Part shown: positions 43,430-62,704 of the stretch, one piece after another
How the letters are laid out: each line of letters opens with the position of its first letter
Numbering within the stretch: position 1 is the stretch's first letter
Assembly: GCA_900319245.1 (NCBI GenBank)
Contig: ONNQ01000009.1
Span: 26,624-90,623, forward strand
DNA from: an uncultured Lachnospiraceae bacterium
GTDB lineage: Bacteria; Bacillota; Clostridia; Lachnospirales; Lachnospiraceae
Reading direction: 5' to 3'
Length of the DNA stretch: 64,000 bases
Program-made: the position numbers and the translations under genes
The notes under the pieces: generated by a model
What the model was told of the DNA's origin: nothing
What the model saw: the letters and a program-made list of their open reading frames with translations, nothing else
The model's database searches: none

Positions 43430-44851
43430 TCAGCAAACCTTGTAGCAGATCTTGCCGGGGTTGAGAATCATCTTGGGATCGAATACTCTCTTGATGCCTT
43501 CCATCAGTCTCATCTGTGCAGGACCGGAGAAGTCTGCCAGATAGTCCATCTTGCCGTGGCCGATTCCGTGCTCACCGGAGATCAGGCCGCCGAAATCTGC
43601 TGCTTTATGATAAATGTCCTTCATGAAGACTTCGACGTCTTTCTGGAAGGTCTCTTTGTCGACTGTATCATCGCCGCATGCGTAGATGTGAAGGTTTCCG
43701 TCGCCGGCGTGGCCAAAGCTCTTGATCTTGAAGCAGTATCTGTCCTCTGTGGATTTTACATAGGTCAGGTACTCGGCGATCTTGGTTACAGGGACAACGA
43801 CGTCGCACTCATCCAGCCATGTGGTCTCCGCCTCGATAGCCTCGAGGAAGGAAGAACGGGCTGCCCATGCGTCGCGCTTCTTGGCGGGCGTATCTGCGAC
43901 CAGAACGTCGATCGCGCCTTCTTCAAGAACCATCTCCGCGGCTCTCTCTACGACGTCATTGAGCTGGTCCATGTTGTCGCCGTCGAATGTGACGAGCAGG
44001 TATGCGCCTACGTCGAAGCCCTCGATCTGCTTGGGGAACGTGCTTCTTCCGATGAATCTCTCGGAGGAAAGGACGATCTCTCTCTCCATGAACTCAACAG
44101 CCTGCGGATTGAGGCCGTGCTTCATGAACTTGGGAACTGTAGCGATACACTCGTCGAGGCCTGCGAAAGGAATGATCAGGGAGACTGTCTCCTTAGGAGC
44201 AGGGATGACCTTCAGGGTCAGCTCTGTGATGATGCCGAGTGTTCCCTCGGAACCGATCATCAGGTTGAGCAGGGAATATCCTGTGCTGGTCTTGGAAACC
44301 GTAGCGCCGAGCTTGATGATCTCGCCTGTCGGGAGAACAACGGTCATCGCGCGCACGTAATCTCTTGTGCATCCATATTTGACAGCGCGCATACCGCCGG
44401 CGTTGGTGGAAACGTTGCCGCCGAGGGTTGCGAACTTCTCGCCCGGATCCGGGGGATACAGAAGGCCTCTGCCAAGAGCGTCCTCTGCCAGATCGTGAAG
44501 AAGAACACCGGGCTCTACGCGGACAACGAAATTGTCCTCATCGTACTCAAGGATCTTGTTCATCTTCTGCATGTCGATCATGACGCCGCCGTAGATGGCG
44601 ACAGACGCTCCTGTCAGGCCGGTACCGGCACCGCGAGGGATTACAGGGATATTGTTCTCATAGCAGATCTTGACGATTGCCGCAATATCTTCTGTGTTGG
44701 TTGCGTCTACAACTACTTCAGGGGGATTTGAGCCGTAGATCGGCATCTCATCGCGGAAAAAATCTTCATTGATATCCTTGCCTGTATGTACCTTACCGGG
44801 TACGATCTTCTCGATCTGGGCAATGATTTCAGGAGTTACTTTGTTATACAT
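43430..44851 (-). CDS. glcD: FAD-linked 2-hydroxyacid oxidase/dehydrogenase (GlcD family)
   Basis: 473 residues from ATG at 44851, preceded by AAAGGAGCAGACAAC. The FAD-binding type-4 (PCMH) domain reads IPVIPRGAGTGLTGASVAIYGGVMIDMQKMNKIL, LYPPDPGEKFATLGGNVSTNAGGMRAVKYG; the C-terminal domain ends HAGDGNLHIYACG and GGLISGEHGIGHGKMDYL. Such enzymes oxidise glycolate or D-lactate, in anaerobes often with electron transfer flavoprotein. No etfAB, glcE or glcF genes are next to it. Its promoter carries FadR-like operators and the gene for a FadR-type regulator is just upstream. Confidence 0.92.
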   Translation of the reverse strand: MYNKVTPEIIAQIEKIVPGKVHTGKDINEDFFRDEMPIYGSNPPEVVVDATNTEDIAAIVKICYENNIPVIPRGAGTGLTGASVAIYGGVMIDMQKMNKILEYDEDNFVVRVEPGVLLHDLAEDALGRGLLYPPDPGEKFATLGGNVSTNAGGMRAVKYGCTRDYVRAMTVVLPTGEIIKLGATVSKTSTGYSLLNLMIGSEGTLGIITELTLKVIPAPKETVSLIIPFAGLDECIATVPKFMKHGLNPQAVEFMEREIVLSSERFIGRSTFPKQIEGFDVGAYLLVTFDGDNMDQLNDVVERAAEMVLEEGAIDVLVADTPAKKRDAWAARSSFLEAIEAETTWLDECDVVVPVTKIAEYLTYVKSTEDRYCFKIKSFGHAGDGNLHIYACGDDTVDKETFQKDVEVFMKDIYHKAADFGGLISGEHGIGHGKMDYLADFSGPAQMRLMEGIKRVFDPKMILNPGKICYKVC

Positions 44852-44942
44852 GTTGTCTGCTCCTTTCATAAATCCTGTGCGTTGATTCAAGCCGTCTGTA
44901 CCAGCTTAAATCCGACTAACAGTTGCGCCTAAATAGTCCCCT

Positions 44943-45092: not shown

Positions 45093-45797
45093 CTATCCCT
45101 TAAATTGTCTGATATATTCGAAGTGGCGGTTCAGGCCGTCCAGGCCCATCTTGAGATCGCTGTCCACAACGCCCATGACAAGAAGGCGGTGTGCGGACTC
45201 GAGCATGTCGTTGCTCCGCATTCCCTCGATGATCTTGCCGCGCAGAACGGGGATGTAGTCCTCGATCACGTTGGTCAGCGCGCTGTACGTAGTGATCAGA
45301 TAGTCGTTGCGAGAGGCCTCGATCAGCGTCCGATGCAACGCCATGTCGTGCTCATAGCGGTCCTTCTCCGTCTCCGCAGACAGGAGGGCGTCCAGATGCG
45401 CCTTGATCTGTATCTTCTGCCGCTCGGAGGCATTGACCACCGCAAGATGCATGGCCTCCCTCTCCAGGCAGTAGCGGAACTGGTTCAGATCGTCCCGGCC
45501 CATCTCCTTCATGGTATAGATCAGTGACAGCATCTCCGTCATCGGCACGTCAAAATTCAGAGAGACATAGTGTCCCGCTCCGTGCCGGGAGGCAGTTACG
45601 CCCATGTTCTCCAGAATTCGCAGGCCCTCTCTGACCGAACCCCGGCTGATTCCCAGCTGCTCGGCAAGTTCCCGCTCTCCCTGCAGCCTGTCGCCGGGCT
45701 TGAGTCTCCCCTTAAGGATCTCCCCTTTGATCAGATCGATCACAAGCTGATATGGCTTTTCTTTCTTCAAATCCTGATGATTTTCAGTCGCAGACAT
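45093..45797 (-). CDS. GntR family regulator, FadR subfamily (FCD domain)
   Basis: 234 residues from ATG at 45797; the adjacent ATG at 45800 is too close to the GAGG site. The winged helix is KPYQLVIDLIKGEILKGRLKPGDRLQGERELAEQLGISRGSVREGLRILENMGVTASRHGAGHYVS. The FCD ligand domain follows (LNQFRYCLEREAMHLAVVNAS, DMALHRTLIEASRNDYLITTY, HRLLVMGVVDSDLKMGLDGLNRHF) with metal-type His residues. It is very likely the repressor of the adjacent glcD gene, with a hydroxyacid as inducer, by analogy with LldR and GlcC. Confidence 0.92.
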   Translation of the reverse strand: MSATENHQDLKKEKPYQLVIDLIKGEILKGRLKPGDRLQGERELAEQLGISRGSVREGLRILENMGVTASRHGAGHYVSLNFDVPMTEMLSLIYTMKEMGRDDLNQFRYCLEREAMHLAVVNASERQKIQIKAHLDALLSAETEKDRYEHDMALHRTLIEASRNDYLITTYSALTNVIEDYIPVLRGKIIEGMRSNDMLESAHRLLVMGVVDSDLKMGLDGLNRHFEYIRQFKG

Positions 45798-45873
45798 CAT
45801 AAACCTCATCAATTTCAAACTTATGCTTTTCATTATAGAGGATTCATATTCGAGGGGCAAGTTTGTTAGGGCT

Positions 45874-46620
45874 TCACGCCCCCTGAAAGCGGAGCGGCAG
45901 CTCCATCCGGTTAGCAGTAAGGAGTTTCTCATCCCGCAGGATCTCCCGGGCCGGTCCGTCCGCCGCGACTTTGCCGCCCGCAAGCAGGATCACGCGGCTG
46001 CAGGTGTCGTAAATCATGTCCAGATCGTGGGACGTGATGATCTTGGTCTGCGGCAGGCTATTGATCGCGCGGATCACAACGCGGCGGTTATAAGGGTCCA
46101 GCGCAGAGGTCGGCTCGTCCATCAGAAGGACCTCCGGCTCCATGGCGAGCACAGTCGCAACCGCCGCCATGCGCTTTTCTCCGCCGGAAATCTTGTGGTT
46201 GTAGAGATATTTAAGGTCCATAAGGCCCAGGCTCTCCAGAGTACTGTCCACTCTCTCCTCAGCCTCTTGGCGCGTCATTCCACTGTTCAGAAGGCCAAAC
46301 ATCATGTCCTCCAGCACTGTGGGCATGAACATCTGGTTGTCGGAGTTCTGCAGAACGAAACCGAGCTTCTCGCGGATGCCGGCAATATGGGCAGGGAGGA
46401 CCTCCAACCCGTCCACCAGGATCGTTCCGTCAAAGAACTGTTTTGACACACCTGCGCCGGGCCCCGCAAGACCCAGAAGCAATTTCATCACCGTGGATTT
46501 TCCGGCGCCGTTGGCGCCGATGAGGCCTACCGTCTCTCCTCTTTGCACATGAAAAGAAACCGATTGGACCACCGGCTTTCCCTTCTCATATGCAAATGTC
46601 ACATTCTCAAATCGTATCAT
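45874..46620 (-). CDS. cbiO: Energy-coupling factor ATPase (CbiO type)
   Basis: 248 residues from ATG at 46620. ABC ATPase motifs: Walker A GLIGANGAGKSTVMKLLLG, Q-loop GFVLQNSDNQMFMPTVLEDMMFG, signature KISGGEKRMAAVATVLAMEPEVLLMDEPTSALD, switch ITSHDLDMIYDTC. The QNSDNQ and EDMMFG segments are typical of CbiO/NikO. It powers cobalt or nickel uptake with the CbiM and CbiQ homologues encoded just upstream. The ribosome binding site lies in a triple GGAGAATC repeat. Confidence 0.93.
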   Translation of the reverse strand: MIRFENVTFAYEKGKPVVQSVSFHVQRGETVGLIGANGAGKSTVMKLLLGLAGPGAGVSKQFFDGTILVDGLEVLPAHIAGIREKLGFVLQNSDNQMFMPTVLEDMMFGLLNSGMTRQEAEERVDSTLESLGLMDLKYLYNHKISGGEKRMAAVATVLAMEPEVLLMDEPTSALDPYNRRVVIRAINSLPQTKIITSHDLDMIYDTCSRVILLAGGKVAADGPAREILRDEKLLTANRMELPLRFQGA

Positions 46621-46643
46621 ACTCTCCGATTCTCCGATTCTCC
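46621..46643 (-). promoter_or_regulatory. Triplicated ribosome binding site of cbiO
   Basis: On the minus strand the start codon is preceded by GGAGAATC GGAGAATC GGAGAGT, three consecutive 8-base units each with GGAG. Only the one nearest to ATG is at normal spacing. Confidence 0.6.
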
Positions 46644-46699
46644 AGCGCCGTGTCATTGTCTTTGGCGTCCGGCCGGCGTTCTACACGCATCCCCCTGCG

Positions 46700-47506
46700 T
46701 TAACGCGTCACAAGCATGCCCAGAAGCTGCGTCAGGTTGACGTTCCGCGCGGCGATAAAGAAAAGGATCCAAACAGCCGCATAGGCGGCGTCTCTCGCCG
46801 ACCCGGCCCGTTCTTCCGAGTAATAGAATTCCCCCCGGTAGCCCCGCAGCAGCATCGAGGAATAGAGCTCCTCCGCCCGGTCCATACTGCGCAGAAGGAG
46901 CTGGCCCAGGAAGGAGCCCCACGCCGTGTAGTGGATGCCCTTTTGCCCGGGCGCGCGCAGGCTGTAGGCCTTGGTCATGACCGAAACCTCCTCGGCCAGC
47001 ACGGCCGCATAGCGGTAGGTCAGAAGGAGCAGCGTCACGAGGATCTGCGGCACGTGGATCTTTCTGAGCACGCCGCAGACTGCCTCGATCCTGGTCGTCG
47101 CCATGAGAAGGAACGACGCGGCGAGACAGAAGACGCCTTTCACCATGAGCGTCACCATGGAGATCATCCCCGTGGTCACGACGAAACTGCCAATCGGGAA
47201 GGCCGGCGTTCGGTCCAGGAAGGGGTTCAGAACGCCTACCGCGCACACCAGGGGCAGCACAAAGCGCAGCTTGTACAGGCAGGTCATGACCGGCACTTCG
47301 CTCACCGCGAACAGTACCGCCGGGTAAAAGACCATAAAGAGCAGCCCGCTCATATTGTATTTGTCAAAAGATACCACGATCAGAATGTAGACCACTGTCA
47401 CAAGAAGCTTCGCCGCCGCGCTTACTGCGTGGATCGGCGAAGCTTTTGCTGCCAATTCGTCCATTTCTCTCAGGTCGTGGATCGACTGATCGATTGTCCG
47501 GCTCAT
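46700..47506 (-). CDS. cbiQ: Energy-coupling factor transmembrane protein (CbiQ/EcfT type)
   Basis: 268 residues. Membrane helices are LLVTVVYILIVVSF, LLFMVFYPAVLFAVSEV, FVLPLVCAVGVLNPFL, VTTGMISMVTLMVKGVFCLAASFLLMATT, and the coupling helices hold VLRKIHVPQILVTLLLLTYRYAAVLAEEVSVMTKAYSLRAPG and RSMDRAEELYSSMLLRGYRGEF (the two Ala-Arg-Gly-type motifs). It links CbiO to CbiM. The ATG overlaps the TGA of the cbiM gene (ATGA), which indicates coupled translation. Confidence 0.92.
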   Translation of the reverse strand: MSRTIDQSIHDLREMDELAAKASPIHAVSAAAKLLVTVVYILIVVSFDKYNMSGLLFMVFYPAVLFAVSEVPVMTCLYKLRFVLPLVCAVGVLNPFLDRTPAFPIGSFVVTTGMISMVTLMVKGVFCLAASFLLMATTRIEAVCGVLRKIHVPQILVTLLLLTYRYAAVLAEEVSVMTKAYSLRAPGQKGIHYTAWGSFLGQLLLRSMDRAEELYSSMLLRGYRGEFYYSEERAGSARDAAYAAVWILFFIAARNVNLTQLLGMLVTR

Positions 47507-48579
47507 AATGCTTCTGTTACTTCTTTTCTCTTTCTAAAGAACCTTCCTACCAGGCAAATTGCCAGCGCTGCAGCCGCGACCATCGCGCTTCCGGCGATCC
47601 CCGATACAGTTGTCCCCATCGGGCTTTCGCTGTTCGCAAACGCGTAATCGGGAAGAACGGAGGTTTTCTCCTGCAGAGAAGCCGCCGCTTCCGCCGCCTG
47701 ACTGCGCACGCCGAAGTTGTCTTCATCCAGTCCCATATTCGCGCTGTAGCCGGCCTCCTCGTTTCCAAAGAGCGCCCACTCCAGACCATCCGGATTGCCG
47801 CTTGCGAAGTGGGAGAAGACGCCGCCTGTCAGAATAGCCAGCGCAGCCAGTGTGAAAATGACAACGCCGAGCGGTTTGGAGCTTCTTCCCGCACTGCTCT
47901 GTGCAATCAGATCCACGTCACGGATCAGTTCCGGTCTGGTCTCATAGACATAGGTCAGTACTGCCGCTGTGATCAGGCCTTCAACCAGGCCGATCGCCAG
48001 ATGGATGGGCTGCATGAGCGCGCAGAACGCGCCGAAAGGAAGCGCTGTAATACCGGAAAGCGTAGTCTCCAGCACGACCGAGAAGGCGCCCATCTGCAGT
48101 GTCACGATGCATCCGATGAGGGACGCCGCAATGATCCTGGCTCTCTGCGCCTTGCGGGGTTCCATCTTGCCAAACAGGCTGCTCTTCATAATCGGCCGCC
48201 AGATCAGGTAATAGCCGATAAAGCACCCATAGAAGGCCATGTTCCATATGTTGGCGCCGAGCGCCATCAGCCCGCCGTCGGCAAAAAACAGACATTGGAT
48301 CGTTAACACCACGATCATGGACAAAAAGCCGGCCTGCGGCCCCAGCAGTGCGGAAAGAAGCATGCCGCCGCACAAGTGGCCGGAGGACCCCGTGCCCGGG
48401 ATCGTGTAGTTGATCATCTGCCCCGCGAAGACAAGCGCGGAGGCCACTGCCATAGTGGGGAGTTTCTGCGTATTTTCATCCTGGGTCAATGTTTTGACCG
48501 ATAAGCCGGCTGCCGTTCCGGACGCCGCATACATGGTCGCAGCAACCGCGGGAGCCAATAAAGCGTCTGCCATATGCAT
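47503..48579 (-). CDS. cbiM: Cobalt/nickel ECF substrate-binding protein CbiM fused to a PDGLE (CbiN-like) domain
   Basis: 358 residues from ATG at 48579, giving the N-terminus MHMADALLAPAVAATMYAAS; His2 near the amino end is needed for metal binding in CbiM/NikM. An AAAGGAG site lies twelve bases upstream. Typical parts are GTGSSGHLCGGMLLSALLGPQAGFLSMIVVLTIQCLFFADGGLMALGANIWNMAF. A C-terminal extension (about 235-358) has the PDGLE motif in ASGNPDGLEWALFG and a final helix, replacing separate CbiN. Cobalt versus nickel cannot be decided. It is the first gene of cbiMQO. Confidence 0.92.
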   Translation of the reverse strand: MHMADALLAPAVAATMYAASGTAAGLSVKTLTQDENTQKLPTMAVASALVFAGQMINYTIPGTGSSGHLCGGMLLSALLGPQAGFLSMIVVLTIQCLFFADGGLMALGANIWNMAFYGCFIGYYLIWRPIMKSSLFGKMEPRKAQRARIIAASLIGCIVTLQMGAFSVVLETTLSGITALPFGAFCALMQPIHLAIGLVEGLITAAVLTYVYETRPELIRDVDLIAQSSAGRSSKPLGVVIFTLAALAILTGGVFSHFASGNPDGLEWALFGNEEAGYSANMGLDEDNFGVRSQAAEAAASLQEKTSVLPDYAFANSESPMGTTVSGIAGSAMVAAAALAICLVGRFFRKRKEVTEAL

Positions 48580-48682
48580 AATTGAAATCTGCTCCTTTAC
48601 GAGTTGTATCTGATTCAAGTTCCATAAGACCAGATCCGTGGAAATCCCTCTGCAGGACTTCGCATCCTGTCCCTACGTAAAG

Positions 48683-61652: not shown

Positions 61653-62567
61653 TTACTCTGTTACTTCCAGGAGCTCAATTCGGAAGTTCAGTTCTTTGCC
61701 TGCCATCTCGTGGTTTGCGTCGAGCGTAATATTCACGTCGTCCTTAGCTGTGACAGTTACAGGGAAGGGCTGACCCATCATGTTTCTCAGGTAGACTCTC
61801 TCACCCACGTTCAGGTTCTCGGAACCGGGGAGCTGTGCGATCTCGATGGTGATGATCGCCTCGGGATCGGTCGGTCCATAGGCCTCCTCGGGCATCAGGT
61901 GCACATCAATAATCTGGCCGACTTCCATGTCTGCTACAGCCTTGTCAAAACCCTTAATCATCATGCCTGCGCCGCAGACAAATGCCAGAGGCTCGCCGCG
62001 GTCATAGGAAGAATCAAACTGAGTGCCATCGTCAAAGGTTCCTCTGTAGTGGACCTTCACGTTTTTGCCAGCATTCTTGCCTTCTACGGTAAGTCTTCTG
62101 CCGCCTCCGCAGCATCCGCCGCCATTGCCGCCACAGCACTCATGCTCTTCGCCTTCCTCGTGGCCGTGACCGCCACAGCACTCGTGATCTTCGCCCTCAC
62201 CGTGGTGGTGACCGCACTCATGGCCTTCGCCGTGGTGGTGATGATCGCAGTTTGCGCCTGTGTCCACAAGCTCACCGCGCAGATATGCAGCTACTGCCTC
62301 GTCCGCGTTGCCGGAAGCGCCGGCGCAGACCTCGATGCCCGCATTGGTGAGCGCGTTCAGGGCGCCGCCGCCAAGACCGCCGCAGATCAGAACCTGGATA
62401 TCATGGTTTGCCAGAAGTCCTGCCAGTGCGCCGTGGCCGATTCCATCCGATCCAATGACTTCACTGGATACGATGGCGCCGTCCTCTACCTCATATACCT
62501 TGAAATATTCTGTTCTTCCAAAGTGCTGGAAGATATTGCCGTTTTCGTATGTTGTTGCGATTTTCAT
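61653..62567 (-). CDS. NifX/NifB-like domain - His/Cys-rich linker - SlyD-type FKBP fusion
   Basis: 304 residues, ATG preceded by GAAAGGAAATTACA. Residues 1-103 match the dinitrogenase iron-molybdenum cofactor family (MKIATTYENGNIFQHFGRTEYFKVYEVEDG, VLICGGLGGGALNALTNAGIEV). Residues 107-153 contain 12 His and 8 Cys, including CDHHHHGEGHECGHHHGEG and repeated EHECCGG. Residues about 168-304 are a SlyD-type FKBP with its insert-in-flap domain (VHYRGTFDDGTQFDSSYDRGEPLAFVCGAGMMIKGFDKAV, HLMPEEAYGPTDPEA). SlyD itself binds nickel through a C-terminal His/Cys tail; here the metal-binding stretch is in the middle. A metallochaperone or metal-store role is inferred. It is monocistronic. Confidence 0.88.
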   Translation of the reverse strand: MKIATTYENGNIFQHFGRTEYFKVYEVEDGAIVSSEVIGSDGIGHGALAGLLANHDIQVLICGGLGGGALNALTNAGIEVCAGASGNADEAVAAYLRGELVDTGANCDHHHHGEGHECGHHHGEGEDHECCGGHGHEEGEEHECCGGNGGGCCGGGRRLTVEGKNAGKNVKVHYRGTFDDGTQFDSSYDRGEPLAFVCGAGMMIKGFDKAVADMEVGQIIDVHLMPEEAYGPTDPEAIITIEIAQLPGSENLNVGERVYLRNMMGQPFPVTVTAKDDVNITLDANHEMAGKELNFRIELLEVTE

Positions 62568-62704
62568 TGTAATTTCCTTTCAGCTTGATTTCGTAAACAT
62601 CTGTTGTTAATAGTAGCACAGTAAACTTTCCGGCAAAAGTCTATTTTGCTTTACAGAGCATGTCTTGCGCCTCCGTCTTGGCAAAAATGATATAATAAAG
62701 AGAC

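Follow-up and report, generated by a model that had tools for sequence, protein, structure and literature searches.

A gene on the minus strand of the analysed DNA, a stretch of 64,000 nucleotides from an uncultured Lachnospiraceae bacterium (hereafter the window), encodes on one chain a NifX-type domain, a segment crowded with His and Cys, and a SlyD-type FKBP prolyl isomerase (Table 1). The fusion gene is real and conserved; its architecture, its conservation across genomes, purifying selection, a predicted disorder of the linker, and the retention of catalytic and ligand-type residues have been observed here. Each part belongs to a known family and the combination is common in genomes, notably those of gut Lachnospiraceae, the protein itself being apparently unstudied; no published description of a NifX-His/Cys-SlyD protein was found in the open-access literature, which was judged mostly by title and abstract. 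The protein is read here, tentatively and at somewhat short of an even chance, as a cytosolic metal- or cluster-carrying foldase, whose metal need not be nickel.

Anaerobic gut Clostridia depend on Fe-S and other metal enzymes and, to our knowledge, little is known about how metal is loaded into their proteins during folding. In organisms such as Blautia, Roseburia, Coprococcus and Butyrivibrio, several of which are available as strains, a domain of the cofactor-carrier type, a segment of the metal-sink type and a foldase stand on one chain, and the fusion protein may load metal into proteins while they fold. A coupling of cofactor insertion to folding would thereby become directly testable with one, probably soluble, protein.

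Table 1. Coordinates of the fusion gene, its parts and nearby elements (positions in the window)
Feature	Position	Strand	Residues	Basis or remark
Whole gene	61653..62567	minus	304 aa	ATG at 62567, stop codon 61653-61655; NifX-type domain, His/Cys segment, SlyD-type FKBP; Pfam and one-frame conservation
NifX/ORP-type (Di-Nase, PF02579) domain	62259..62567	minus	1-103	Pfam, PDB relatives, residue counts
Disordered His/Cys/Gly/acidic segment	62088..62258	minus	104-160	NCDHHHHGEGHEC near its start; composition, AlphaFold pLDDT
In-frame tandem repeat of 42 bp, 2.1 copies, inside the segment	62128..62215			Repeat found in the sequence
SlyD-type FKBP prolyl isomerase	61656..62075	minus	165-304	Pfam, PDB alignments
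SlyD-type insert-in-flap (IF, chaperone) segment	61707..61874 (bounds approximate)	minus	~232-287	Alignment to 5i7p and 4odm
Intrinsic terminator-like stem-loop	61617..61641	minus		9 pairs, 8 of them G-C; just 3' of the gene
Possible extended -10 promoter element, TGTGCTACTAT	62610..62620	minus		Read directly; ~45 bases upstream of the start
CbiM with PDGLE domain, CbiQ, ABC ATPase (the cbiMQO genes, 45877-48618) and their surroundings	45877-48618, with 43433-44890 and 45096-45983	minus		Beside FAD-linked oxidase and GntR-FCD regulator

Domain architecture, conservation and distribution

Pfam places Nitro_FeMo-Co (PF02579, the dinitrogenase iron-molybdenum cofactor type, 'NifX/Di-Nase') at residues 9-96 (75.3 bits against a cut-off of 26.3, E 4.7e-21) and FKBP_C (PF00254) at residues 165-235 (75.7 bits against a curated cut-off of 21.1, E 3.6e-21); both families are also present in each of two named fused relatives. 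The open reading frame and Pfam confirm the coordinates and the order of NifX, linker and SlyD that the preliminary description had given for this locus, and place the gene on the minus strand. An AlphaFold2 model of the fusion protein built from 33 sequences (mean pLDDT 84.9, pTM 0.47) gives high confidence for both domains, with pLDDT below 50 at residues 110-155. When the protein was scanned against NCBIfam, no model reached its own cut-off; the equivalog PRK10737, the SlyD model, scores 64.2 bits against 174, and TIGR02663, the equivalog for the NifX of nitrogenase assembly, 12.5 bits against 112. A 292-residue open frame also runs antisense to the gene (61710-62588, plus strand), probably as a by-product of codon use.

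The NifX-type part has PDB relatives in 1t3v, 1o13, 2yx6, 1rdu and 1eo1. Conserved in it are H15 (within HFG), H45 and C62 (within CGG), the position of the last carrying no Cys in the four PDB relatives aligned. Across the fused NifX domains H15, H45, C62 and C107 are invariant (134/134 each) and H109 (131/134), H110 (130/134) and C118 (132/134) nearly so, and these positions are retained in most of 46 unfused NifX relatives as well. The CDH motif is kept in the fusion protein, and the two Cys flanking HFG are absent. According to PMC11938142, His35 of NifX takes part in NifB-co binding and the conserved Cys82 does not, and His121 of NafY is essential. His35 and Cys82 are spaced by 47 residues, as are H15 and C62, and this spacing suggests a possible correspondence of the two pairs. 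In the NifX half, a metal or metal-sulfur cluster is probably bound by H15 and ligands near it.

SlyD binds unfolded clients via its IF part and isomerises prolines. The flap insert of the fusion protein aligns up to residue 302 with the FKBP12/SlyD chimera 5i7p, and up to residue 304 with Thermus SlyD 4odm. Residues Y174, F184, D185, F196, I204, Y230 and F295 are invariant in 33 sequences and occupy positions that align with the FKBP active site, assigned by way of the active-site residues of FKBP12; as judged by the alignment, the PPIase active-site residues are retained. A C-terminal His/Cys metal tail of the type found in E. coli and H. pylori SlyD, which is not universal, is absent, and the chain ends at the FKBP core.

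Of 36 other genomes of the same genus, 23 have the fusion as a single open frame and nine give no match. Pieces of it occur in three more, apparently at contig ends in two and with a broken frame in the third, and the last genome has a NifX-type match alone, in a different frame arrangement. At least 586 stretches that encode a relative were revealed by a scan of public genomes. The best 80 named loci show 60-81% identity over the best segment, and BLAST of the two halves found both domains, in the same order and in one open frame, in all 80. The carriers named in these loci include Blautia hansenii, B. glucerasea, B. schinkii, Roseburia inulinivorans, Coprococcus comes, Pseudobutyrivibrio, Butyrivibrio, Mediterraneibacter catenae and Catenibacillus scindens. 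The preliminary description had allowed that such an architecture might already be common and characterised; the first of these holds, as evident from the number of relatives, and for the second the open-access literature gave no description.

Across the family, the fusion occurs in 24 of 140 genera sampled by one genome each, a sample that includes the window's own genome (87% complete), 95% completeness having been asked of the others; five of the 140 genomes have a closely related SlyD without the NifX part and the segment. Among 391 genomes of a class sample, 9 (own genome included), from three families, have the fusion at full length. When 398 genomes sampled across the phylum were queried with the SlyD part, 7 matched; four are fused, one of these outside the class, and three are stand-alone SlyDs, two of them just 37-38% identical. 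That a frameshift or an assembly error has joined two genes, a possibility raised by the preliminary description, is practically inconceivable with one order in one open frame in every named locus and in the 23 same-genus genomes; the search for domain order that it had proposed returned the same order in the named loci and in the 24 genera of the family.

Estimates of pN over 14 same-genus orthologs are 0.08-0.27 for the linker, the alignment of which is the least certain part of the estimate, 0.07-0.19 for the NifX part and 0.055-0.18 for SlyD, with synonymous sites near saturation. All three parts are under purifying selection.

Two single loci deserve separate mention. In a draft genome (G003, locus L020), the fusion gene lies in two frames with the break inside the NifX part, its relatives being intact, which may reflect a sequencing error or decay. 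An unverified and unannotated 'Bacteriophage sp.' scaffold from human faeces (MT836829.1) carries a homolog of the fusion with 70% identity over 81% of the query, and may be a mislabelled bacterial contig.

The His/Cys segment and the origin of the fusion

Residues 107-153 (47 amino acids) comprise 12 His, 8 Cys, 14 Gly and 12 acidic residues, which reproduces the His and Cys counts reported at the outset; the binomial chance of at least 20 His and Cys in 47 residues is 1e-17, with a background of 3.3% His+Cys taken from 15 neighbouring genes. The His+Cys share of the segment is ~29%. Across 134 fused proteins (135 less locus L022, which is left out of the linker counts), the segment is 32-82 residues long and has 8-28 His+Cys (median 14; 0-17 for His alone, 4-16 for Cys). 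Its median charge composition is 9 D+E and 1 K+R. The pattern CxHx..HxC occurs in 108 of the 134, the exact pattern being loose. After the opening C107, H109 and H110, and then C118, it is composition rather than exact sequence that is preserved. The 42-bp repeat is a likely mechanism of change in segment length.

Of 46 NifX paralogs examined that lack SlyD, 41 have a similar tail, which opens with C-x-[HD]-[HED] and has a further Cys after it. These NifX-tail genes stand alone, lie behind DUF134 in one frame or end an Mrp/NBP35 ATPase, the labels 'DUF134' and 'Mrp' having been set by position in the frame and confirmed by Pfam for 4/4 DUF134 and 2/2 Mrp proteins scanned. Neither a His/Cys tail nor a NifX part is present on the five SlyDs that stand alone in the family sample; two of the genomes concerned (G460 and G564) encode a NifX-tail protein at another place. 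Since most unfused NifX paralogs have the like tail and these SlyDs have none, the His/Cys strip is, from the sequences compared, better read as the tail of a NifX subfamily to which SlyD was appended than as a displaced SlyD tail. A move of the C-terminal metal tail of SlyD to the front is rejected on the same evidence.

In the simplest history, SlyD was added behind a NifX protein that already had its metal tail. A SlyD tree rooted on a distant SlyD contains 63 of 138 fused rows and eight stand-alone rows, eight duplicate loci having been dropped; the contig-edge locus L021 counts as fused in it, and the broken L020, given the same label, does not appear in the drawn tree. Six close stand-alone SlyDs nest in its fused clade, under a starred branch, and therefore most likely lost the NifX front half. 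The NifX tree was built from 51 of 134 fused rows and all 46 unfused ones. Both trees are quick ones that leave many forks open, and a very long branch (4.33) leads to the SlyD outgroup, so that the position of the root and how many gains and losses took place are uncertain. One locus titled Synergistes sp. (L099) falls among Lachnospiraceae rows of the SlyD tree, likely through a naming or binning error.

The stand-alone SlyD genes, with the six close ones nested in the fused clade, and the stand-alone NifX-tail genes would also suit two unrelated activities that were joined for co-expression alone. This account is very improbable, as the joined order persists across genera, and the join, though variable, is always Cys-rich and usually His-rich.

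Metalloenzyme associations and gene surroundings

The preliminary description had hinted at nickel or cobalt and proposed a co-occurrence check. In the 140 family genomes, HypA is present in 10/24 fusion carriers and 28/116 others (p 0.13), CODH in 5/24 and 28/116 (p 1.0), LarC in 19/24 and 70/116 (p 0.10) and urease in 3/24 and 8/116 (p 0.40), by tests that treat related genomes as independent, so that the HypA and LarC trends are not to be over-read either way. The HypA count of 38 genomes leaves out G539, which passes the cut-off just with in-frame neighbours (39 otherwise), and LarC was counted at E 1e-10 with fragments included. None of the four nickel-enzyme families gives a significant signal (all p>0.1), and co-occurrence does not support the hint. 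Five of the 24 carriers have none of HypA, CODH, LarC and urease, and 11 have none of HypA, CODH and urease.

The cbiMQO importer that had been cited as a pointer to Ni/Co is real, but lies 13 kb off in another gene group. The group is a possible nickel supply for lactate racemisation, LarC being encoded on another contig. A nickel/cobalt chaperone that feeds particular Ni enzymes has a precedent in SlyD-HypB of E. coli, as described in PMC7840056, and could draw on the HypA and LarC of the own genome, on cbiMQO in the window, and on the somewhat higher, though not significantly higher, frequency of HypA and LarC among carriers. It is decidedly unlikely in view of the lack of significant association with the four families, the carriers devoid of all four or of HypA, CODH and urease, and the NikR-like boxes, which occur in 12/133 upstream regions against 14/133 shuffled ones. 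A Ni/Co role of the fusion protein is not supported.

A link to [FeFe]-hydrogenase maturation gave no signal either, HydG being over the cut-off in 11/24 carriers and 58/116 others (p 0.82). The nitrogenase-like PF00148 is found in 9/24 carriers and 31/116 others (p 0.32). Six family genomes have nifDKEN-grade sets (four PF00148 matches of 345-433 bits); none of them is among the 24 carriers of the 140-genome sample, and a nitrogenase cofactor role is rejected. The window's own genome (87% complete) reaches 107 bits at best for PF00148. Homologs of PF00148 well below NifDK grade lie on contig C76 of that genome at ~109868-120423.

The gene is flanked by an aldo/keto reductase past the terminator and by a divergent protein kinase. 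Two terminator-like sites were observed in the region against 1.2 expected (sd 1.0), which is not above chance; of the earlier claim of a single transcription unit with its own terminator, the terminator-like stem stands, at a site frequency not above chance, and the unit is plausible from the neighbours. Among 23 other same-genus upstream regions, the putative promoter element recurs at a similar position in L003 and L005 and as a variant in L004; it was left unflagged by a simple promoter scan of the region. No family is directly adjacent to the fusion gene in more than 4 of 60 readable loci (of the 80; the other 20 are probably masked by a longer antisense ORF), and since there is no recurrent neighbour or operon partner in these loci, no client can be named.

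Metal-operator boxes, defined by consensus sequences for Fur, PerR, Zur, CopY, NikR, MntR, DtxR, Rex and CzrA-like regulators, were counted in 133 upstream regions and one base shuffle of each. The counts are close to the shuffled ones and unconvincing, with Fur boxes in 9/133 against 3 and PerR boxes in 10 against 7. No Rfam riboswitch match was found within the window at the gathering threshold.

Proposed function and comparison with known systems

In the tentatively preferred reading, a small metal or metal-sulfur cluster would sit in the NifX/ORP-type domain, the long His/Cys/acidic tail would gather and buffer soft divalent metal ions, and the SlyD domain behind the tail would grip an unfinished client through the IF and speed its prolyl isomerisation. 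The tether would bring metal to the client during folding, in cis, as in E. coli SlyD with its own C-terminal tail. For the fusion protein we infer metal binding, a cluster, client binding and transfer. The conserved residues, the His/Cys composition and the PPIase residues support two elements of the metallochaperone proposed in the preliminary description, its architecture of three parts and a role related to metal; its Ni/Co part is not supported, and the strip is better read as a NifX tail than as one relocated from SlyD.

The fusion protein shares with SlyD the FKBP domain, the IF insert, the active-site residues and, within one chain, a metal-type segment rich in His and Cys. It differs in that the segment precedes the FKBP domain and derives from a NifX-type protein and that a C-terminal tail is lacking, and SlyD has no NifX domain. 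SlyD is the closest precedent, the fusion protein possibly working like it with a metal domain borrowed from another family, because the tail of E. coli SlyD (13 His and 6 Cys, up to 7 Ni bound) binds nickel and has a role in hydrogenase maturation (PMC7840056). The comparison suggests that the metal-binding strip of SlyD can come from a different protein family. 

Several observations count against the preferred reading. The fusion does not track significantly with any of the six marker families, no recurrent neighbour points to a client, the pattern of the strip is loose, the Cys82 of NifX is reportedly uninvolved in NifB-co binding, and the Cys of the CxHFGHCE motif of MrpORP are missing. 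The tether is dispensable, since five family genomes have this SlyD without the NifX part and the segment. In addition, the nickel role of H. pylori SlyD needs no metal tail, according to PMC7840056, and the Di-Nase cluster of MrpORP is not efficiently transferable to apo-aconitase (PMC6345978). The more specific proposal of a widespread gut-bacterial family in which a metal-cluster carrier is fused to a chaperone, so that insertion of an Fe-S or heterometal cofactor is coupled to prolyl isomerisation and client folding on one molecule, is doubtful.

Metal on the NifX tail might instead shut SlyD off, which would make the protein a metal-gated foldase serving sensing or regulation instead of delivery. 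The His/Cys segment lies immediately in front of the FKBP domain, and in both E. coli and H. pylori the PPIase activity of SlyD is inhibited by nickel; gating through the tail is unlikely, as the inhibition in H. pylori is independent of the metal tail (both from PMC7840056).

MrpORP (Mrp/NBP35 ATPase and Di-Nase; PMC6345978) resembles the fusion protein in having a Di-Nase/NifX-type module joined to a second domain, in the CDH motif at the end of the module, and in its occurrence in anaerobes. In the fusion protein, however, the partner is SlyD and not an ATPase, the module is N-terminal, the Cys of CxHFGHCE are absent and a long His/Cys segment is present. The MrpORP model NF041136 is matched by the Di-Nase part alone, with 72.6 bits against a cut-off of 450, and the Mrp/NBP35 P-loop ATPase domain is lacking.

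IssA, as described in PMC5524996, likewise combines a NifX-type (IPR003731) domain with a disordered tail rich in Gly behind it, and stores Fe and S. This parallel and the high His+Cys share of the segment would fit a metal or Fe-S store, an IssA-like or metallothionein-like buffer for which SlyD is a stabilising or solubilising partner. Such a store is quite unlikely; the retained catalytic SlyD residues would be needless in it, and the IssA tail is cationic and aromatic and, in the same text, a proposed binder of anionic thioferrate, whereas the fusion segment is acidic and His/Cys-rich and is followed by SlyD. Unlike the cationic IssA tail, the acidic strip is suited to soft divalent cations.

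The DUF134-NifX proteins of Clostridia have a NifX domain and a like C-x-H-H...C tail, and differ from the fusion protein by a DNA-binding-like DUF134 in front and the lack of SlyD behind. An NifX-His/Cys-tail protein lies in one frame behind DUF134 (Pfam) at L040, L160, L165 and L180, as in many Clostridia; DUF134 is a sigma-70 region 4-like DNA-binding domain, and DUF134-NifX is possibly a metal- or cluster-sensing regulator. MrpORP-like proteins of Lachnospiraceae (Mrp/NBP35 ATPase and NifX) also end in a His/Cys tail, as seen at L176 and L178 (by Pfam) and L177 (by position).
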